Assembly: GCF_024171865.1 (NCBI RefSeq)
Contig: NZ_JAMTCN010000037.1
Span: 1-39,079 of the forward strand
Length of the DNA: 39,079 nucleotides
Reading direction: 5' to 3'
From: Prauserella aidingensis
GTDB taxonomy: Bacteria > Actinomycetota > Actinomycetes > Mycobacteriales > Pseudonocardiaceae
The notes beneath the pieces were generated by a model that saw nothing but the letters and a program-made list of their open reading frames with translations, was not told the DNA's origin and searched no databases. Positions 2,990 to 39,079 of the stretch are shown here, in pieces. Position numbers and translations under genes: made by a program. Each line of letters begins with the position of its first letter. Positions within the stretch are counted from its first letter, which is position 1.

Positions 2990-4423
2990 ATGAGCGTGTG
3001 GGAATACGCGCCCGCGCCGGAGTCTCGCGACCTGGCGAACCTGCAACCGAAGTACCGGCCGTTCGTCGACGGCGAGTTCGTCGACGGCGGCGGCGAGCCA
3101 CTCACGTCGATCAACCCGGCGACCGAGGAGCCCCTCGCCGAGGTCGGCACCGCCTCGGAGTCCGACGTGGACACCGCCGTGCGAGCCGCGCGGCGCGCCT
3201 TCGAGCAGGTGTGGGGGCCGATGCCGGGCGCCGAGCGCGCCAAGTACCTGTTCCGCATCGCCCGGCTGCTCCAGGAACGCGCACGCGAACTCGCCGTGCT
3301 GGAGACCCTGGACAACGGCAAGCCGATCAAGGAGTCGCGCGACTCGGACGTCCCGACGGCCGCGGCGCACTTCTTCTACCACGCGGGCTGGGCCGACAAG
3401 CTGGACTACGCCGGCTACGGTCCCGACCCGCAGCCGCTCGGTGTCGCGGGGCAGATCATCCCGTGGAACTTCCCGCTGCTCATGCTGGCGTGGAAGATCG
3501 CGCCCGCGCTCGCGACCGGCAACACGGTGGTGCTCAAGCCCGCCGAGACCACGCCGTTGAGCGCACTGGTGTTCGCCGAGATCTGCCAGCAGGCGGGGCT
3601 GCCCGCGGGCGTGGTGAACATCGTGCCGGGTGCGGGCGACGTCGGTTCGCTGCTGGTGCGCCATCCCGGCATCGACAAGATCGCCTTCACCGGGTCGACC
3701 GCCGTGGGCAAGGAGATCCAGTACGCGGTGGCGGGCACGCCGAAGCGGCTGACCCTGGAACTCGGCGGCAAGGCGGCCAACGTCGTGTTCGACGACGCCC
3801 CGCTCGACCAGGCCGTCGAGGGCATCGTGAACGGCATCTTCTTCAACCAGGGACACGTCTGCTGTGCCGGTTCGCGCCTGCTGGTGCAGGAGTCGGTGGC
3901 CGAGGAGCTGCTGGGCAAGCTGCGCGCGAGGGTGTCGACGTTGCGGCTCGGCGACCCGCTCGACAAGAACACCGACATCGGCGCGATCAACTCCGCCGAG
4001 CAGCTGGCGAAGATCCGTGAGCTGACCGCGGCAGGCGAGGACGAGGGCGCCGAGCGCTGGACGAGCCCGTGCGCACTGCCCGAGCGCGGTTTCTTCTTCG
4101 CCCCCACCGTGCTGTCCGGCGTCGAGCAGTCGATGCGGGTCGCGCGCGAGGAGATCTTCGGACCGGTGCTCTCGGTGCTGACGTTCCGCACCCCGGAGGA
4201 GGCCGTGGCGAAGGCCAACAACACGCCGTACGGCCTGTCCGCGGGCCTGTGGACCGAGAAGGGCTCGCGCATCCTGTGGCTGGCCGACCGGATGCGCGCC
4301 GGCGTGGTCTGGGCCAACACGTTCAACCGCTTCGACCCCGCCGCCCCGTTCGGCGGCTACCAGGAGTCGGGTTTCGGCCGCGAGGGCGGCCGCACCGGAC
4401 TGGAGGCGTACCTGCATGTCTGA
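2990..4423 (+). CDS. Aldehyde dehydrogenase, catalytic member of a split pair (ALDH16-like)
   Basis: An NAD(P)-dependent aldehyde dehydrogenase of 477 residues. It has the usual landmarks: PWNFPLL, KPAETTPL, the FTGSTAVGK cofactor loop, ELGGK with the general-base Glu, and the catalytic Cys in GHVCCAGSR. It ends with GFGREGG and only a short tail (EAYLHV), so the last oligomerisation strand of typical enzymes looks short. The start at 2990, 4 nt after deoC, is preferred to an upstream in-frame ATG that lies inside deoC. The stop overlaps the next gene by 8 nt. From context the substrate is probably acetaldehyde from DeoC, but this is inference. Domain order with the following truncated paralogue matches that of two-domain ALDH16 proteins. 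Confidence 0.9.
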   Translation: MSVWEYAPAPESRDLANLQPKYRPFVDGEFVDGGGEPLTSINPATEEPLAEVGTASESDVDTAVRAARRAFEQVWGPMPGAERAKYLFRIARLLQERARELAVLETLDNGKPIKESRDSDVPTAAAHFFYHAGWADKLDYAGYGPDPQPLGVAGQIIPWNFPLLMLAWKIAPALATGNTVVLKPAETTPLSALVFAEICQQAGLPAGVVNIVPGAGDVGSLLVRHPGIDKIAFTGSTAVGKEIQYAVAGTPKRLTLELGGKAANVVFDDAPLDQAVEGIVNGIFFNQGHVCCAGSRLLVQESVAEELLGKLRARVSTLRLGDPLDKNTDIGAINSAEQLAKIRELTAAGEDEGAERWTSPCALPERGFFFAPTVLSGVEQSMRVAREEIFGPVLSVLTFRTPEEAVAKANNTPYGLSAGLWTEKGSRILWLADRMRAGVVWANTFNRFDPAAPFGGYQESGFGREGGRTGLEAYLHV

Positions 4424-6982: not shown

Positions 6983-7017
6983 TTTGCATGCCAGCGATCG
7001 CGTGTGACCATGGATCG

Positions 7018-7883
7018 ATGGAACTGCAGCAGCTGCGGTACGTCCTCGCCGTGGCCGACACCATGAGCTTCACCCGCGCCGCACAACGCTGTTTCGTCGT
7101 CCAGTCGTCCCTGAGTCACCAGGTCAAAGCACTGGAGGGCGAGTTGGGCGTTCGGCTGTTCGCGCGCACCAGCCGACGCGTCGAACTCACCGAGGCGGGC
7201 GCCGCATTCCTCCCGGGCGCACGGGCGGCACTCGAATCCGCGGACCGCGCCGCTCAGGAGGCCGCGGCCGCCACGGGTGAGGTGCGCGGGCAGGTGACGA
7301 TCGGCACCATCCCGACGCTCACCGCCGTCGACCTTCCCGGCGTGCTCCGGCGCTTCTGCGGCAGGCACCCGCACGTCGGCGTGACCTCGCGCACCGGCAA
7401 CAGCGACGACCTCGCCGCGGCCGTCCGCGCGGGCGAGATCGACGTCGCCTTCCTCGGGCTGCCGGACACGACCGAGCCCCGCGGCGGCTCGCCCGGGAAC
7501 GCCTCGTCGCGGTCGTGCCCCGCGACCACCGGCTCGCCGACCGGCGCCGCGTCCACCTCCGGGACCTGGCCGACGAACCGTTCGCCGACTTCCCTGCCAG
7601 GAGTCCGGGCCGCACCCAGAGCGACAACGCGTTCGCCGCCGCCGACCTGACCCGTCGGGTCGCGTTCGAGGCGATGGATGCGGCGCTGATCCTCGACCTC
7701 GTCGGCAACGGCCTCGCCGTGGCGCTCCTGCCCGCAGGCGTCGTTCCCGAGCCTGCGGAGCTGTCGACCGTGCCGGTCGTCGACGGCCCGCAGCGGACCG
7801 AGTATCTGATGTGGAACGACTTCAACCCCACACCTGCGGCGACGGCGTTCCTCGCGGAGCTGGACGATGCCGCACCCGAATGA
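7018..7883 (+). pseudogene. LysR-family regulator, frameshifted
   Basis: The gene starts at ATG 7018 with a typical LysR helix-turn-helix (MELQQLRYVLAVADTMSFTR, then FARTSRRVELTEAG). It runs in frame into the effector domain as far as about 7485 (VAFLGLPDTTEPRG). From there this frame becomes nonsense and stops at 7650. The next frame (positions divisible by 3) continues the family without a gap: LARERLVAVVPRDHRLADR, then DLVGNGLAVALLPAGVVP, ending at 7883. The change fits loss of one base, or gain of two, between about 7475 and 7495 in a GC-rich run. It may be a real mutation or a sequencing error. If real, the divergent EamA/reductase unit has lost its regulator. Confidence 0.8.
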
Positions 7884-7935: not shown

Positions 7936-8114
7936 GAGCACAGCCGCGCGACAGCGCGCCCGTGGGGGCGGTGGTTGGGCGACGGGCGGGCACAACACGA
8001 CCCCCCGAATCCGCAACACGATCCCCCGAATCCACAACACGACCCCCTGGAACCGCAACACGACCCCCTGGAACCGCAACACGGTCCCTTCGAGCACAGC
8101 GGCGCGGCAGCGCG
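7936..8114. repeat. Imperfect direct repeats flanking the 21-bp array
   Basis: A 23-bp segment beginning GAGCACAGC at 7936-7958 recurs at 8092-8114 with two mismatches, on either side of the 21-bp array. A second direct pair, GGGGCGGTGGTTGGG, is at 7913-7927 and 7965-7979. The array is therefore embedded in locally duplicated sequence, which suggests slippage or unequal recombination. Confidence 0.7.
7979..8083 (-). repeat. 21-bp tandem repeat array A (about 5 units)
   Basis: On the minus strand the core CGTGTTG recurs exactly every 21 bp (start bases 8083, 8062, 8041, 8020 and 7999). Each of the first four units continues with a TTC-GGGG-type half; the first two are identical and the fifth keeps only the core. 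The array lies in the 288-bp gap between the LysR remnant and the convergent helicase gene, downstream of the helicase stop on the helicase strand. The same unit family occurs at 30358-30504. Twenty-one base pairs equal two helical turns. Confidence 0.9.
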
Positions 8115-8171: not shown

Positions 8172-10694
8172 TCAGGCGGTGGGGAGGGGGCCCACGTCGG
8201 TGAGGCGGATCACCGGGGCGCCTGCGTCGTCGGAGGCGTCGAGGTCGACCTCGGCGCTGATGCCCCAGTCGCGGTCGCCCTCGGGGTCGTCGAAGATCTG
8301 CCGCACCTTCCAGATCCCCGGTTGCTGGTCGATGATCAGCATCGCGGGCCCGCGGGCGTCCGGGCCGGTGCGGATCTCCTCGTACTCCTCGAAGTACTCG
8401 TCGAGCGCGTCGGCCCAGTCGTCGGCGTCCCAGTCGTCGTCGAGTTCGCCGAGCTCGTCGTAGGCCTCGCGGGCGGCGAGTTCGACCCGGCGGAACATCT
8501 CGTTGCGCACGAGCACGCGGAACGCGCGCTCGTTGCGCGTCACCGGCGGCGGCCCCTCGGGCAGCGCCCGCTCCGGGTGGGTCGCGGCGATCTCCTCGTC
8601 CGGGTGCCGCAGCGCCTCCCATTCGTCCAGCAGGCTCGAGTCGACCTGGCGCACGAGTTCGCCGAGCCATTCGATGAGGTCGCTCAGCGGTTCGGTCTTC
8701 GCGTCGTCGGGCACGGTGCGGCGCAGCGTGTCGTAGGCGTCGGCGAGGTACCGCAGCAGCACACCCTCGGAGCGAGCGAGGTTGTAGTGCCCGATGTACT
8801 CGACGAAGTTCATGGCCCGCTCGTACATGTCGCGCACGACCGACTTGGGCGAGAGTTCGTAGTCGGCGACCCACGGGTGTCCCTGCCGGTACGTCGCGTA
8901 CGCGGCCTCGAGCAGTTCGGCCAGCGGCTTCGGGTAGTCGATCTCCTCGAGCAGCTCCATGCGCTCGTCGTACTCGATCCCCTCGGCCTTCATCTCCGCG
9001 ACCGCCTCGCCGCGCGCCTTGAACCGTTGCTGCGACAGGATCTGCTTCGGATCGTCCACCGTGGACTCGATGATGGACACGACGTCGAGCGCGTAACTGG
9101 GCGATTCCGGGTCGAGCAGGTCGATCGCGGCGAGCGCGAGCGGCGACAGCGGCTGGTTCAGGGCGAAGTCGAACTGCAGGTCCACGGTCAGCCGCACGCG
9201 GCGGCCGTCGGCGTCGGGCTCGTCGAGCCGTTCGACGACGCCCGCCGCCAGCAACGCGCGGAAGATCGCGATCGCCCGCAGGATGTGCCTGCGCTGCGCG
9301 GCACGGTCCTCGTGGTTGTCGGTGAGTAGACGGCGCATGTGGGCGAACGCGTCGCCGGGGCGCGAGATGACGTTGAGCAGCATCGAGTGCGTCACCGTGA
9401 AACTCGACGTCAACGGTTCCGGCTCGGCGGCGATGAGCTTCTCGAACGTCGTCTCGGTCCAGTTGACGAAGCCCTCCGGCGCCTTCTTGCGCGTGATCTT
9501 GCGCTTCTTCTTGGCGTCGTCGCCCGCCTTCTCGAGGGCCTTGGCGTTCTCGATGACGTGGTCGGGCGCCTGCACCACGACGTAACCGTCGGTGTCGTAG
9601 CCCGCCCGGCCCGCGCGGCCCGCGATCTGGTGGAACTCGCGTGCCTTCAGGTGCCGCTGGCGGGTGCCGTCGAACTTCGTGAGCGCCGACAGCACCACGG
9701 TGCGGATGGGCACGTTGATGCCGACGCCGAGCGTGTCCGTGCCGCAGATCAGCTTCAGCAGGCCTGCCTGCGCGAGCTGTTCGACCAGCCGCCGGTACTT
9801 CGGCAGCATTCCCGCGTGGTGCACCCCGATGCCCGCGCGCACGAGCCGCGAGAGCGTCTTGCCGAACCCGGCCGAGAACCGGAAGTCGCCGATGGCCTCG
9901 GCGATGGCGTCCTTCTCCGCCCGCGTCGTGACGTTGATGCTCACCAGCGCCTGCGCACTCTCCACGGCCGCCGCCTGCGAGAAGTGCACGATGTAGATCG
10001 GCGCCTGTCCCCCGGACAGCAGCTCGGTGACGGTCTCGTGCATCGGTGTCATCGCGTAGCGGAACGTCAGGGGCACGGGACGTTCGGCCGAGGTGACCAC
10101 GGCGGTCGACCGGCCGGTGCGCCGCGTCAGGTCCTTCTCGAAGAACGAGACGTCGCCCAGCGTGGCCGACATGAGCACGAACTGTGCCTGGGGCAGTTCG
10201 ATCAGCGGCACCTGCCAGGCCCAGCCGCGGTCCGGTTCGGAGTAGAAGTGGAACTCGTCGGCGACGACCTGGCCGACGTCGGCGTCCGCGCCGTCGCGCA
10301 GCGCGATGTTGGCGAGGATCTCCGCGGTGCAGCAGATGATCGGGGCGTCCGGGTTGACCGACGAGTCGCCGGTGACCATCCCGACGTTGTCCGCACCGAA
10401 GGTCTCGACGAGCGAGAAGAACTTCTCGGACACCAGGGCCTTGATCGGCGCCGTGTAGTAGCTCCGGCGGCCGTCGGCGAGCGCCGCGAAGTGGGCCCCC
10501 ACCGCGACCAGGCTCTTGCCCGAGCCCGTCGGCGTGGACAGGATGACGTTCGCGCCCGAGACCGCCTCGATCAGGGCTTCCTCCTGGGCGGGATACAGCT
10601 CGATGCCGCGTTCGAGAGTCCAGGTGGAGAACGCGTCGAACAGCGTGTCCGGGTCGGAGTCGCCGGGTACCAGGTCGGCAAGGGAGTCAGTCAT
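8172..10694 (-). CDS. Ski2-like DEAD/DEAH-box helicase with DUF3516 region
   Basis: An 840-residue superfamily 2 helicase, probably acting on RNA in the cytoplasm. It has Walker A TPTGSGKS (about 54-61), motif II DEFH (146-149), motif III SAT (176-178) and motif VI QIAGRAGRAGYD (about 353-364). A basic KKKRKITRKK patch follows, then a long C-terminal region of the DUF3516 type found in actinobacterial members. A very acidic stretch (ELDDDWDADDWADAL) lies near the C-terminus. The ATG at 10694 has only a weak AGGT in front. The gene stands alone, divergent from the acidic protein gene; array A follows its stop codon. The substrate and physiological role of this subfamily are not known to me. 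Confidence 0.9.
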   Translation of the reverse strand: MTDSLADLVPGDSDPDTLFDAFSTWTLERGIELYPAQEEALIEAVSGANVILSTPTGSGKSLVAVGAHFAALADGRRSYYTAPIKALVSEKFFSLVETFGADNVGMVTGDSSVNPDAPIICCTAEILANIALRDGADADVGQVVADEFHFYSEPDRGWAWQVPLIELPQAQFVLMSATLGDVSFFEKDLTRRTGRSTAVVTSAERPVPLTFRYAMTPMHETVTELLSGGQAPIYIVHFSQAAAVESAQALVSINVTTRAEKDAIAEAIGDFRFSAGFGKTLSRLVRAGIGVHHAGMLPKYRRLVEQLAQAGLLKLICGTDTLGVGINVPIRTVVLSALTKFDGTRQRHLKAREFHQIAGRAGRAGYDTDGYVVVQAPDHVIENAKALEKAGDDAKKKRKITRKKAPEGFVNWTETTFEKLIAAEPEPLTSSFTVTHSMLLNVISRPGDAFAHMRRLLTDNHEDRAAQRRHILRAIAIFRALLAAGVVERLDEPDADGRRVRLTVDLQFDFALNQPLSPLALAAIDLLDPESPSYALDVVSIIESTVDDPKQILSQQRFKARGEAVAEMKAEGIEYDERMELLEEIDYPKPLAELLEAAYATYRQGHPWVADYELSPKSVVRDMYERAMNFVEYIGHYNLARSEGVLLRYLADAYDTLRRTVPDDAKTEPLSDLIEWLGELVRQVDSSLLDEWEALRHPDEEIAATHPERALPEGPPPVTRNERAFRVLVRNEMFRRVELAAREAYDELGELDDDWDADDWADALDEYFEEYEEIRTGPDARGPAMLIIDQQPGIWKVRQIFDDPEGDRDWGISAEVDLDASDDAGAPVIRLTDVGPLPTA

Positions 10695-27679: not shown

Positions 27680-29470
27680 ATGCAGTTCCACAAGTACGAC
27701 GTGGTGATCGTCGGGGCTGGTGGCGCCGGCATGCGCGCGGCCATCGAGGCCGGTCAGCGCTCCCGCACGGCCGTGCTCACCAAGCTGTACCCGACGCGCT
27801 CCCACACCGGCGCGGCGCAGGGCGGCATGTGTGCCGCGCTGGCGAACGTCGAAGAGGACAACTGGGAGTGGCACACCTTCGACACCGTCAAGGGTGGCGA
27901 CTACCTGACCGACCAGGACGCCGCGGAGATCATGGCCAAGGAGGCCATCGACGCGGTGCTGGACCTGGAGAAGATGGGCCTTCCGTTCAACCGCACGGAG
28001 GAAGGCAAGATCGACCAGCGGCGCTTCGGCGGTCACACGCGTGACCACGGCAAGGCCGCCGTGCGCCGGGCCTGCTACGCGGCCGACCGCACCGGTCACA
28101 TGATCCTGCAGACGCTGTACCAGAACTGCGTCAAGCACGGCATCGAGTTCTACAACGAGTTCTACGTCCTCGACGTGACCATGTCGACGAACGAGAACGG
28201 CGAGCAGGTCGCGTCCGGCGCGATCGCCTACGAACTCGCGACCGGCGAGATCCACGTCTTCCAGGCCAAGTCGATCGTGTTCGCCACGGGCGGCTTCGGC
28301 AAGGTCTTCAAGACCACCTCCAACGCGCACACCCTGACCGGCGACGGCATGGGCATCTACGCGCGCAAGGGCCTGCCGCTCGAGGACATGGAGTTCTACC
28401 AGTTCCACCCGACCGGCCTGGCCGGGCTGGGCATCCTGCTCACCGAGGGTGCCCGCGGCGAGGGTGCGATCCTGCGGAACGAGTCGGGCGAGCGGTTCAT
28501 GGAGCGCTACGCTCCGACGATCAAGGACCTCGCCCCGCGCGACATCGTCGCCCGGTCGATGGTGCTCGAGGTGCTCGAGGGTCGGGGCGCGGGCCCGCAC
28601 AAGGACTACGTGTTCCTCGACTGCACGCACCTCGGCGAGGAGGTCCTCGAGACCAAGCTGCCGGACATCACCGAGTTCGCCCGCACGTACCTGGGTGTCG
28701 ACCCGGTGCACGAGCCGGTGCCGGTGTACCCGACGGCGCACTACGCCATGGGCGGCATCCCGACGAACGTCAAGGGCGAGGCGCTCAAGGACAACGACAC
28801 CGTCATCGGCGGCCTGTACGCGGCGGGCGAGGCGGCGTGCGTGTCCGTCCACGGGTCGAACCGGCTGGGCACCAACTCGCTGCTCGACATCAACGTGTTC
28901 GGCCGTCGCGCGGGCATCGCGGCCGCGGAGTACGCGAACGACATCGACCACGTCGAGCTGCCCGAGAACCCGGCCAAGATGGTGCAGGGCATGGTCGACC
29001 ACCTGCGGACCGCCTCCGGCGGCGAGCGGGTGGCCGACATCCGCAACGAACTGCAGCAGACGATGGACACCAACGCGGCCGTGTACCGCACCGAGGACAC
29101 GCTGAAGCAGGCGTTGTCCGACGTGCAGGCGCTCAAGGAGCGCTACGGCCGCATCGCCGTCCACGACAAGGGCAAGCGGTACAACACCGACCTGCTCGAA
29201 GCCGTCGAGCTGGGCTTCCTGCTGGATCTGGCCGAGATGCTCGTGAACGCGGCGCTCGCGCGCAAGGAGTCCCGCGGCGGCCATGCCCGCGAGGACTACC
29301 CGGACCGCGACGACACCAACTTCATGCGGCACTCGATGTCGTACAAGATCCTGCCGGAGAAGGAGGACCCGGACGCGCCGCTGGGCCTCACCGGGTTCAC
29401 GGCCGACCTGCGGCTGGATTACAAGCCGGTCGTCTTCACCCGGTACGAGCCCATGGAGCGGAAGTACTGA
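27680..29470 (+). CDS. sdhA: Succinate dehydrogenase flavoprotein subunit
   Basis: The catalytic subunit oxidising succinate to fumarate, on the inner face of the membrane. The 596-residue protein has the FAD-binding GAGGAG motif (12-17) and RSHTGAAQGG with His42 as the covalent FAD attachment site. It also has EFYQFHPTGL with an active-site His, the RGEGAIL loop with the catalytic Arg region, and AHYAMGGIPTN. Length and motifs are typical of SdhA rather than L-aspartate oxidase. GGAGA lies 6-7 nt before the ATG. Third gene of the operon. Confidence 0.97.
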   Translation: MQFHKYDVVIVGAGGAGMRAAIEAGQRSRTAVLTKLYPTRSHTGAAQGGMCAALANVEEDNWEWHTFDTVKGGDYLTDQDAAEIMAKEAIDAVLDLEKMGLPFNRTEEGKIDQRRFGGHTRDHGKAAVRRACYAADRTGHMILQTLYQNCVKHGIEFYNEFYVLDVTMSTNENGEQVASGAIAYELATGEIHVFQAKSIVFATGGFGKVFKTTSNAHTLTGDGMGIYARKGLPLEDMEFYQFHPTGLAGLGILLTEGARGEGAILRNESGERFMERYAPTIKDLAPRDIVARSMVLEVLEGRGAGPHKDYVFLDCTHLGEEVLETKLPDITEFARTYLGVDPVHEPVPVYPTAHYAMGGIPTNVKGEALKDNDTVIGGLYAAGEAACVSVHGSNRLGTNSLLDINVFGRRAGIAAAEYANDIDHVELPENPAKMVQGMVDHLRTASGGERVADIRNELQQTMDTNAAVYRTEDTLKQALSDVQALKERYGRIAVHDKGKRYNTDLLEAVELGFLLDLAEMLVNAALARKESRGGHAREDYPDRDDTNFMRHSMSYKILPEKEDPDAPLGLTGFTADLRLDYKPVVFTRYEPMERKY

Positions 29471-29504
29471 TGCGTACTGCCGCACCGCACGCGGAGGATG
29501 TGAA

Positions 29505-30281
29505 ATGACAGCGGTAGCTGAACCCACGAACGACACGTCGCAGATCCCGGCTCCGGAAGGCTCCGTCACCATCACGGTGAAGATCCTGCGGTTCAACCCG
29601 GAGATCGACAACGAGCCGCACTGGGAGTCCTACGACGTCCCGGCGCTGCCGACCGACCGTGTGCTGAACCTGCTGATGAACATCAAGAACTACGCGGACG
29701 GCACGCTGTCGTTCCGTCGTAGTTGCGCTCACGGCATCTGCGGTTCGGACGCGATGCAGATCAACGGCATCAACCGGCTGGCCTGCAAGGTCCTGGTCAA
29801 GGACCTGCTGGCGAAGGAAGGCAAGCAGACCACGGTCACGGTGGCGCCGATCAAGGGCCTGCCGACGATGAAGGACCTCTATGTCGACATGGAGCCGTTC
29901 TTCGAGGCGTTCCGTGCGGTCAAGCCGTACCTGATCGCCTACGGCAACGAGCCGACCAACGAGCGTTACCAGTCGGCCGCAGACCGCGAGCGGTTCGACG
30001 ACACGACCAAGTGCATCCTGTGCGCCTGCTGCACCTCGTCGTGCCCGGTGTACTGGGCGGACGGCTCGTACTTCGGCCCGGCCGCGATCGTCAACGCGCA
30101 CCGGTTCATCTTCGACTCCCGTGACGAGGCGGCCGAGGAGCGGCTGGACATCCTCAACGACACCGAGGGCGTGTGGCGCTGCCGCACGACGTTCAACTGC
30201 ACCGACGCCTGCCCGCGCGGGATCCAGGTGACGAAGGCGATCCAGGAGGTCAAGCGCGCGCTGCTGTTCAAGCGCACCTGA
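29505..30281 (+). CDS. sdhB: Succinate dehydrogenase iron-sulfur subunit
   Basis: It transfers electrons from SdhA to quinone through three iron-sulfur centres. The 258-residue protein shows the [2Fe-2S] site SCAHGICGSD, where Asp replaces the third Cys as in E. coli SdhB, plus the later Cys of RLACK. The [4Fe-4S] and [3Fe-4S] sites are CILCACCTSSCP and CRTTFNCTDACP. The ATG at 29505 is chosen because GGAGG lies 7 nt upstream and the frame before it overlaps sdhA. A strong terminator follows 22 nt after the stop, ending the operon. Confidence 0.96.
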   Translation: MTAVAEPTNDTSQIPAPEGSVTITVKILRFNPEIDNEPHWESYDVPALPTDRVLNLLMNIKNYADGTLSFRRSCAHGICGSDAMQINGINRLACKVLVKDLLAKEGKQTTVTVAPIKGLPTMKDLYVDMEPFFEAFRAVKPYLIAYGNEPTNERYQSAADRERFDDTTKCILCACCTSSCPVYWADGSYFGPAAIVNAHRFIFDSRDEAAEERLDILNDTEGVWRCRTTFNCTDACPRGIQVTKAIQEVKRALLFKRT

Positions 30282-30303: not shown

Positions 30304-30342
30304 GGGCGTCCCGGCTCACGACGAGCCGGGACGCCCTTTTTT
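30304..30342 (+). terminator. Intrinsic terminator of sdhCDAB
   Basis: A perfect 14-bp stem (GGGCGTCCCGGCTC, 30304-30317, with its complement at 30323-30336), a 5-nt loop and then six T. Textbook rho-independent terminator. Confidence 0.95.
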
Positions 30343-30357
30343 CGCGAGCCCAGCACC

Positions 30358-30504
30358 CGTGTTGCGCCTTCCGGAGCCCGTGTTGCAGATTCCGGAGCTC
30401 GTGTTGCGGATTCGGGGGACCGTGTTGCAGGTTCCGGGGAGCGTGTTGCGCCTTCCGGAGCCCGTGTTGCGGGCTCCGGGGAGCGTGTTGCGTCCTCAGG
30501 ACGA
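30358..30504 (+). repeat. 21-bp tandem repeat array B (7 units)
   Basis: CGTGTTGC recurs exactly every 21 bp at 30358, 30379, 30400, 30421, 30442, 30463 and 30484. Most units continue with a TTCCGG/TTCGGG half; units 1 and 5 are identical and unit 7 is degenerate. It lies just beyond the sdh terminator, on the same strand. Unit 3 matches a unit of array A (8000-8020) at 19 of 21 positions. The units can be read as heptapeptide repeats (VLRLPEP-type), but there is no start or Shine-Dalgarno, so I take it as non-coding. Confidence 0.92.
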
Positions 30505-30532: not shown

Positions 30533-30735
30533 TCACAGGTCGTCGCAGGCCGCCCGCACTTCGACGACCGCCCCACGAGCTTCGGGACTGTCGAACTCCA
30601 GCCGTTGAGCAAGGATCGGGTCGTCGACCTTCTCGGAGCAGGCCCACACCACCGCCGCCGCCGAGCACGAGTCCGGCCACGGCCGCGAGCACGAGCGGAA
30701 GCCGGCGCCGACGCCCGGCCTGCGACGCGTGCTCA
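30533..30735 (-). pseudogene. Possible frameshifted small exported protein
   Basis: Directly after the SCO4848-like gene, one minus-strand frame reads a signal- or membrane-like stretch (RRRRLPLVLAAVAGLVLGGG). A second frame continues with a natural-looking acidic C-terminus (ACSEKVDDPILAQRLEF, ending in ACDDL). Joining them needs a frame change in the GGC/GGT run near 30650. The place where a coupled GTGA start would be reads CTGA. This may be a decayed gene, a sequencing error or chance. Confidence 0.3.
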
Positions 30736-30978
30736 GGACTCCGGGCTCGACCGGCGCAATGCGCGCAGACCGCGCCAGCCGATGACGCCGATGACGGTGC
30801 CCAGCACGAACGACACGATCGCCAGCACCAGGTGCACCCAGAAGAACGGCGTCGGCGAGCCGTCGGCCGCCCACGCGTTGTCGCTGCTCCACAGGTTGCG
30901 GGCGAAGGTGATCCAGATGACCCAGGACCACACGCCGAAGGCCAGCAGAAACGCCGAGACACCGCGAGACATGCGCAT
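30733..30978 (-). CDS. SCO4848-like small membrane protein
   Basis: A protein of 81 residues with two hydrophobic helices: FLLAFGVWSWVIWITFARNL and a second from FFWVHLVLAIVSFVLG to IGWRGL. The sequence and its place next to a D-Ala-D-Ala carboxypeptidase and sdh match the SCO4848 family of Streptomyces, whose function is unknown. I chose ATG 30978 (MRMSRGVS) because the family begins at this point. A GTG six bases upstream (30984) is nearer to the GGAG and is the alternative. It is divergent from the carboxypeptidase gene with 88 bp between. Confidence 0.8.
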   Translation of the reverse strand: MRMSRGVSAFLLAFGVWSWVIWITFARNLWSSDNAWAADGSPTPFFWVHLVLAIVSFVLGTVIGVIGWRGLRALRRSSPES

Positions 30979-31033
30979 GCGCACCAGTCTCCTCACATGA
31001 CGGCCGTCACCCCACATCGGGGGATCAACCCGC

Positions 31034-38387: not shown

Positions 38388-39079
38388 TCAGCCGACGATG
38401 ATGCCGCGGTCGTACCGCGCGGCCGCTTCGAGGCGGCTGCGGCTGTAGGCCTTGACGCCGAGGCTGGCGCGGCCCGGGTCCGACACGTAGAACTCACCGG
38501 CCGAGTTGGTGCCCCGGGCGACGACGTAGTGCCCGTAGCTCGGGGCACCGCCCAGCAGGACGCCGTGGTTCACGTTGAGGATCACCGGCTTGCCGTCCTG
38601 CGCGGCGGCGAGTGCGTTGGCGTAGTTCACCTTCCGCGCGTTCGTGTCGTACGCGGCGAGTCCGTTGATCAGGTGACTGACGTCGGAACCCCACGTGTCG
38701 GCCGGGATCTTGCAGGCCTCGCGCATGTTCATCACCTGCTGCTTGTGCGAGCCCGCCGGGGGCTTACCCAGGGCGTACAACGTGATGACCGCCGACGTCG
38801 GGCCGCAGTTCTCGGAGCTGTACGGGCCCGTGGCCATCTGGTTGATGACGACGAGGTCGCCCGAGCCGCCGGGGTCGGGCTCGGGGTCGGGGTCGGAGCC
38901 CTTCGTGCGGCTGACGCCGAGGGCGGCCATCGTCTGCGCGCCCGCGTAGCCGTCGACGGTGAGTCCCTGCTTGCGCTGGAAACTCTTCACGGCCGACTTG
39001 GTGACGGAGCCGTAGTCACCGTCGACGACCACCCCGACGGCCGACTGCACAGCCTTGACGACACTGGTGAGCTCACCCT
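38388..39079 (-). CDS. Peptidoglycan-binding domain plus C39-like peptidase (partial)
   Basis: Only the C-terminal 229 codons are in the window; the frame continues past the right edge. The visible protein has a PG_binding_1 repeat (ending DGDYGSVTKSAVKSFQRKQGL, then DGYAGAQTMAALG). An Asp/Pro-rich linker follows, then a C39-like papain-fold domain. Its Cys is in SSENCGPTSAVI, the His in SYGHYVVARG and the polar residue in FYVSDP, in the order Cys-His-Asp expected of this fold. Such proteins are secreted and attach to the cell wall; the domain may be a peptidase or amidase. A signal peptide would lie outside the window. The GTG at 39050 lies inside the binding repeat, so it is not the start. 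Confidence 0.85.
   Translation of the reverse strand, partial: GELTSVVKAVQSAVGVVVDGDYGSVTKSAVKSFQRKQGLTVDGYAGAQTMAALGVSRTKGSDPDPEPDPGGSGDLVVINQMATGPYSSENCGPTSAVITLYALGKPPAGSHKQQVMNMREACKIPADTWGSDVSHLINGLAAYDTNARKVNYANALAAAQDGKPVILNVNHGVLLGGAPSYGHYVVARGTNSAGEFYVSDPGRASLGVKAYSRSRLEAAARYDRGIIVG

Follow-up and report, generated by a model that had tools for sequence, protein, structure and literature searches.

Phased arrays of a 21-bp repeat at gene ends in Prauserella and other Pseudonocardiaceae

Introduction

Why does a row of seven similar 21-bp units stand just past sdhB in Prauserella aidingensis, on the far side of a terminator? How transcription stops at gene ends in GC-rich actinobacteria is, to our knowledge, poorly understood. 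The initial annotation of the 39,079-nt stretch analysed here (the window) had noticed this array (array B) and another of the same unit (array A), and had proposed a dispersed family with a role, or mobility, at gene ends. Our preferred reading, which we hold tentatively and rate somewhat below an even chance, is that the arrays are helically phased sites for a putative protein and form a polar barrier where genes end. Phased arrays in the hundreds, many of them where convergent genes end, are a concrete candidate for a gene-end element.

Results and discussion

Array B and the sdhB 3' flank

Array B occupies 30358–30504 on the + strand. Its seven units, beginning CGTGTTGC, follow one another in exact 21-bp steps, as had been described from the sequence alone. 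Units 1 and 5 are identical and unit 7 is the most diverged. Tandem Repeats Finder reports the same repeat at 30356–30492 (period 21, 6.5 copies, 78% match). The gene upstream is sdhB (29505–30281, +), which encodes the succinate dehydrogenase iron-sulfur subunit; the start is that of our own gene caller, and the NCBIfam assignment was made on the longer ORF 29283–30281. The sdh intrinsic terminator noted earlier is present at 30304–30342 (+), read by eye and by terminator scan. It is composed of a hairpin with a 14-bp stem and a 5-nt loop (30304–30336) and a run of six T (30337–30342), and array B starts 15 nt after the T-run. Convergent with sdhB, the gene caller predicted a short ORF of 83 aa (30733–30984, −), which matched no Pfam family at 0.001.

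The sdhAB region of six other genomes of the genus is 94–98% identical to the window. In five sister species a hairpin followed by an array lies past sdhB, all on the sdhB strand; the hairpin of P. halophila is without a T-run. The strict finder counted four units in P. isguenensis, three in P. salsuginis, two in P. alba and seven each in P. halophila and P. rugosa. The initial annotation had named a lack of conservation at this flank as evidence against its proposal; the array is there in 5/5 of the other species that have this unit. The text of the unit differs by species: six of the seven P. halophila units are CGTGTTGCGCCTTCCGGGCGC or one base off, and most P. rugosa units are CGTGTTGCGCCCTCCGGAGCC. 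Thus, the array keeps its place and direction, and its text is exchanged and made uniform locally. At the sdhB flank of G001, the seventh genome of the genus, the hairpin is kept and the strict finder found no array. A lone CGTGTTTCGGGGGCT lies in the first bases past the sdh terminator of G001 (L174), at the position of the sisters' array; it may be a remnant of a unit or due to chance.

Array A and the rest of the window

Array A (7979–8083, −) has five units, four good and one decayed, and is flanked by a LysR-type gene and a helicase-like gene (8172–10694, −). The latter, which the array follows in the direction of transcription, matches Hel308-type NCBIfam models below their cut-offs. Unit 3 of array B and one unit of array A are identical at 19 of 21 positions, and each array lies past the 3' end of a gene whose orientation it shares (the helicase-like gene for A, sdhB for B), both as first noticed. 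By our gene calls both arrays also lie between convergent genes, a point absent from the initial annotation. Gene models came from our own codon-model caller, trained on contig C3 and also applied to genomes G213 and G009 of the family.

The array finder returned A and B as the two arrays of the window. Unit-like matches with up to 3 mismatches numbered 10, compared with a mean of 1.64 and a maximum of 6 in 100 dinucleotide-preserving shuffles. Rfam covariance models run on the window at gathering thresholds matched a 16S rRNA fragment only, so the arrays match no structured RNA family there. This fragment (1–165, −) is a contig end inside a 16S rRNA gene, an ordinary assembly break. The LysR-type regulator gene (6988–7883, +) is split over two reading frames, with the HTH and the first part of the substrate domain in one frame and the remainder in the other; in the P. 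alba orthologue (L089) a single frame reads through.

A dispersed family in Prauserella

A two-unit pattern (adjacent units, no more than 2 mismatches) had 465 matches in the 5.65-Mb P. aidingensis genome (211 on the + strand and 254 on the − strand) and its reversed control had 0, in agreement with the dispersed family proposed from the window. Among 41 genomes searched as relatives, P. aidingensis included, the pattern was present in six, all of its own genus, and absent from all 34 genomes of other genera and from G001 of the same genus. A scan of named genomes gave at least 91 stretches; among the matches listed all were from Prauserella (P. isguenensis, P. rugosa, P. halophila, P. alba and P. 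salsuginis), a genus placed in the Pseudonocardiaceae. A second unit type, CGTGTCCTGCNNTC, occurs in 30 exact copies. Unchanged runs of the unit CGTGTTGCGGATTCCGGGGGT fill positions 39049–39161 of contig C37 and 203–315 of contig C23. The C23 run is close to the contig start and the C37 run, going by contig order, close to the contig end; perhaps one long array broke the assembly there. A literature search by title and abstract start, with most subscription journals outside its scope, gave no description of the repeat among the matches listed.

The proposed mobility fared less well. PF01797 (Y1_Tnp), the family of REP-type transposases, had 0 matches in the P. aidingensis genome (two of the seven genomes of the genus have one match each), and REP/RAYT mobilisation was rejected on this ground. 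The strict two-unit pattern had 0 exact matches in viral contigs in a search that covered this core only, and viral spread of the arrays was rejected. What stands of the earlier interpretation is the dispersed family, the preference for 3' ends, the same-strand bias and the array at the sdhB flank of the sister species; neither a REP-type transposase nor viruses gained support as a means of mobility.

REPs are 20–40 bp palindromes with GTAG or CGTC tags, and RAYTs are presumed to move the GTAG kind, according to the accessible part of PMC3733652. As described in the same part, short copies of REP/BIME elements are numerous between genes, mainly convergent or unidirectional ones, and near 3' ends, a placement that the Prauserella arrays share (PMC3733652). 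Unlike REP/BIME elements, the Prauserella units are neither palindromes nor stem-loops of 20–40 bp, show no pairing covariation and run head-to-tail at 21 bp, in a genome without a Y1 transposase match.

Anatomy of the unit and the 21-bp period

Unit anatomy was read from 227 distinct arrays with 856 units, from which units with more than 3 mismatches had been dropped. Positions 2–7 and 17 are 98–99.8% fixed, that is, GTGTTG and one G are nearly invariant. Positions 10, 11, 13, 15, 20 and 21 are variable, and 11 and 20 are nearly free. In 460 internal units (first and last units and arrays of fewer than 4 units dropped), the mean number of mismatches was 0.167 in the 8-bp 5' half and 1.093 in the 8-bp 3' half. 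This contrast is not made by the filter, because the finder scores its 16 defined positions alike, except that C or G is allowed at position 15. Between neighbouring units within an array, 38.4% of the variable positions and 3.1% of the first eight differ; between units from different arrays the values are 43.6% and 3.8%, respectively. Freely drifting copies would not show such constraint, which argues that a word is being read, either by a host factor or by machinery that copies the arrays.

The second alternative leads to the main rival of our reading, in which the arrays are selfish or mutation-driven repeats with no host role; amplification that requires the core would spread and homogenise them, and they would survive where insertion is least harmful. 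We consider this possible but on the whole doubtful. A fixed core is expected here as well, if copying needs the core.

Spacing between CGTGT words in the spacers of 400 kb of contig C3 was 21, 42 and 63 bp in 88, 62 and 37 cases, and 22, 43 and 64 bp in 2, 3 and 4. The finder's own count (696 of 708 spacings at 21) is partly built in, since the finder extends at exactly 21 bp; the CGTGT count is free of that. A period of two helical turns puts all sites on the same face of the helix, so that a protein could assemble on them cooperatively. The iterons of plasmid origins are direct repeats about two helical turns long, to which one protein binds on one face. Both helical phase (the 21/42/63 lock) and an invariant core (at least 98%) are found in the Prauserella arrays, which are likewise direct repeats about two helical turns long in strict phase but, unlike iterons, number hundreds and are dispersed at gene ends.

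Returning to the protein-site reading, each array may line up sites of one orientation for a single sequence-specific DNA-binding protein. In Prauserella, the protein would contact a 5' word, CGTGTTG, and a second block (YYC and the G at position 17) about one helical turn apart. A fixed word, a second block one turn on, a two-turn period and a tolerant middle are the features that such a one-protein row would show. Our analysis found no candidate gene for a cognate protein. A looser parallel is the TAACTGA heptamer, a direct repeat in intergenic regions of Beggiatoaceae, Cyanobacteria and Bacteroidetes, which, in the accessible part of PMC4679880, also forms many sets and has a proposed binding factor. 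Its units are 7 bp long and, in the Beggiatoaceae genome studied, lie mostly just upstream of start codons, where they were read as translational signals (PMC4679880, same part), whereas the Prauserella units are 21 bp long, lie at gene ends and have cores that differ by lineage.

Placement and orientation relative to genes

Placement was counted in an 825-kb sample made up of an entire 400-kb stretch of contig C3, the window, and pieces chosen for arrays already seen in them. It holds 79 arrays: 38 in convergent spacers, 19 in co-directional spacers running with the genes, 8 in co-directional spacers running against them, 9 in divergent spacers, 4 inside a predicted gene and 1 at an edge. On the C3 stretch, of which 86% is coding, arrays occupy 14 of 51 convergent, 10 of 108 co-directional and 1 of 60 divergent spacers of at least 63 bp (Fisher p = 1.7e-4). 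The syntenic stretch of P. isguenensis, which is not independent of C3, gave 6/32, 5/78 and 0/42, respectively. A further 100 kb, from contig C4, has three arrays close together, with 0/12 convergent, 1/26 co-directional and 0/14 divergent spacers occupied. At the 91 named loci, which were picked only for one exact two-unit match and are partly orthologous to one another, 61 arrays are convergent, 22 run with and 6 against co-directional genes, 9 are divergent, 7 lie inside genes and 24 at an edge. The enrichment at gene 3' ends that had been suspected from two arrays is thus seen in the 825-kb sample, in the C3 spacers and at the 91 loci. The same-strand bias holds as well: in co-directional spacers, 19 of 27 arrays in the 825-kb sample and 22 of 28 at the 91 loci run with the upstream gene.

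Placement past stop codons, often between convergent genes, together with the bias to run with the gene, suggests a polar barrier or insulator. Past the stop codon, a protein filament would hold back polymerases that overrun the gene, keeping them out of the next gene and preventing antisense transcription. Of the roles offered in the initial annotation, a protein-binding array and a transcription-end barrier are those that we infer. The sdhB array follows a hairpin and a T-run, and one C3 array is placed after an SRP RNA gene (RF00169, 69.7 bits) and its T-run, so the arrays there need not be the primary terminator. Points against the barrier reading are the divergent arrays (9/79), those inside genes (4/79) and the absence of arrays from the 12 convergent spacers of C4.

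The selfish-repeat alternative accounts for part of the same data. Enrichment between convergent genes is the expected residue of selection against harmful insertions, and REPs, which have been proposed to be selfish, share this placement (PMC3733652, accessible part). The bias to run with the upstream gene, however, is not expected of a pure passenger.

Supercoiling offers another account, in which the arrays are topological elements and gyrase or an architectural protein handles positive supercoils between convergent genes on them. BIME-2 elements, to which gyrase binds, are the model. The convergent enrichment and the length of the commonest arrays (4–7 units, 84–147 bp) agree with this idea, but lineage-specific cores would be odd for a conserved enzyme and the orientation bias is left unexplained, and we regard it as unlikely.

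The sense bias in co-directional spacers might instead point to an element in the 3' UTR, where the transcribed array folds, is bound as RNA or itself terminates. The sense strands of 20 arrays do fold better than shuffles (mean z −1.83, compared with −0.74 for the antisense). When the first 150 nt past the stop were scanned for terminators under loose settings, matches turned up in 21 of the 95 convergent flanks whose array is co-directional, in 4 of 73 whose array is opposing and in 10 of 154 that have no array; among array-free co-directional 3' flanks, 16 of 239 had a terminator-like hairpin. Only 4 of 25 loose-scan matches in flanks with a co-directional array end before the array, so the others overlap the array or lie past it. 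Under a stricter scan of the stretch from stop to array, intrinsic terminators were rare, with 3 in 140 flanks whose array is co-directional and none in 120 whose array is opposing. In 584 distinct dimers, the strongest mutual information was between neighbouring positions and with the next unit, and complementary covariation was absent from the 18 strongest among all column pairs. RNA pairing was rejected on this basis, and the residual folding of the sense strands is supposed to come from repetition. Because the sdhB array also lies beyond the T-run, and a convergent partner gene would carry the array as antisense, we judge a role at the RNA level very unlikely.

Gain and loss of arrays

Turnover was followed in spacers whose flanking orthologues stay together. 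Arrays of P. aidingensis were also present at 8 of 16 comparable sites in P. isguenensis, 5 of 7 in P. alba and 4 of 7 in P. salsuginis, and at 0 of 2 in P. halophila, 0 of 6 in P. rugosa and 0 of 2 in G001. P. rugosa has 211 two-unit matches elsewhere in its genome despite sharing none of these sites. Array direction agrees in all 17 shared comparisons, in one of which P. aidingensis has an additional array of opposite direction. Only one spacer, in P. halophila, has an array in the relative and not in P. aidingensis. At site 221646 of C3, where P. aidingensis has an extra gene, an array of the same direction is found in all five named species and none in G001. Array-free orthologous spacers are as short as 4–18 bp between stop codons, and decayed remnants of arrays were seen by eye at several P. 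isguenensis sites.

Since 8 of 16 sites are array-free in P. isguenensis and all six in P. rugosa, single arrays are dispensable. Such fast turnover is a point against the barrier reading. Under that reading, slippage may homogenise the units of an array, sites would be gained and lost quickly, and the recognised word would shift between lineages. A selfish repeat explains the turnover, including the decayed copies, at least as well as the barrier does but is weaker on the orientation bias; the lack of a Y1 transposase match in P. aidingensis also speaks against it. The sister species without single arrays are natural controls.

Pairs of arrays and the genes between them

Of the neighbouring arrays less than 3.1 kb apart at the 91 loci, 25 pairs are face to face, none is back to back and 5 share a strand. 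The corresponding counts are 5, 1 and 1 on the whole 400 kb of C3, and 1, 0 and 1 on the 100 kb of C4. Over all pieces of the P. aidingensis genome they are 18, 1 and 11, a sample biased in that the pieces other than C3 and the window were chosen where arrays had been seen. Some face-to-face pairs enclose genes, which by eye look ordinary and mixed.

The face-to-face pairs (25 of 30) may also be taken as borders of exchangeable cassettes, bracketing genes that are gained and lost. Some enclosed genes do come and go. A TetR-SDR pair enclosed in P. aidingensis is intact in P. salsuginis and present as remnants in P. isguenensis and P. alba. In P. isguenensis a second inner gene is also reduced to a remnant, and a third, of 182 aa in P. 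aidingensis, has no match in the stretch L103 of that species. At 4418–4475 of L103, two arrays meet head-on in a clean perfect palindrome, CGTGTTGCGCAACACG, and the inner gene is absent. However, neighbours of arrays are no less conserved in P. isguenensis than other genes (35/42 vs 201/230, p = 0.46), and the ordinary, mixed look of the inner genes is a further point against cassettes. Cassette borders were rejected on this conservation and on the back-to-back pairs of G213; we hold this account to be highly improbable. The opposite pairing in Prauserella and G213 is likewise a point against the barrier reading, and we have no good account at hand of the face-to-face geometry.

A wider family with other cores in the Pseudonocardiaceae

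G001 has 21-bp arrays of its own, and in the spacers sampled from it (100 kb) no 8-mer is more over-represented than CGTGTCAG. We searched 297 family genomes with a generic pattern, CGTGT-N6-YYC-N2-G-N4-CGTGT-N6-YYC. At least one match was found in 66 of them, covering 23 of 46 genera, and at least 10 matches in 29 genomes with 8 genus codes (counted by eye). The reversed control reaches one match in seven family genomes and never more, so single matches elsewhere may be due to chance. A search of 394 genomes from the class found three matching genomes outside the family, each with one match, and the reversed control matched 7 genomes with up to 2; outside the family the pattern is at chance level within the class.

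Among the matches listed, read from the first places in each genome, the middle of the unit is CAGCA in G001, a mixture of CCCCC and TCGTC/TCGCC in G101, TTGCC/TGGCC in G213, CGTCC in G254 and CCCCG in G224. The layout is thus kept with other cores in other genera. Judging from these patterns, the unit that the initial annotation saw in one window belongs to a wider family with lineage-specific cores, which its reader could not have seen. If one protein reads the arrays, the drift of its specificity against many sites would show unusually clearly how a DNA-binding protein and its sites change together in bacteria. Lineage-specific cores also resemble successive waves of repeat families, as expected of selfish repeats. 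A bolder proposal, which we offer as speculation and think rather unlikely, is that part of the Pseudonocardiaceae marks gene ends with a site-and-reader system. The word of the reader, between the fixed CGTGT and YYC, would have shifted by lineage and hundreds of sites followed, yielding directional insulators between convergent genes that replace hairpin terminators.

In 120 kb of G009 there are two arrays only and no clear k-mer signal, a further point against the barrier reading. In G213, a pattern-free k-mer count gave CGTGTTTG and CGTGTTGG, spaced by 21, 42 and 63 bp in 29, 15 and 6 cases. Over 400 kb of this genome, 8 of 12 arrays lie in convergent spacers and four pairs are back to back. 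The spacers of G213 (L256–L275) also contain other long repeated modules beside the 21-bp arrays, with copies of a stretch similar to GGCCTACATTGCCGGACGCCGGAGG.
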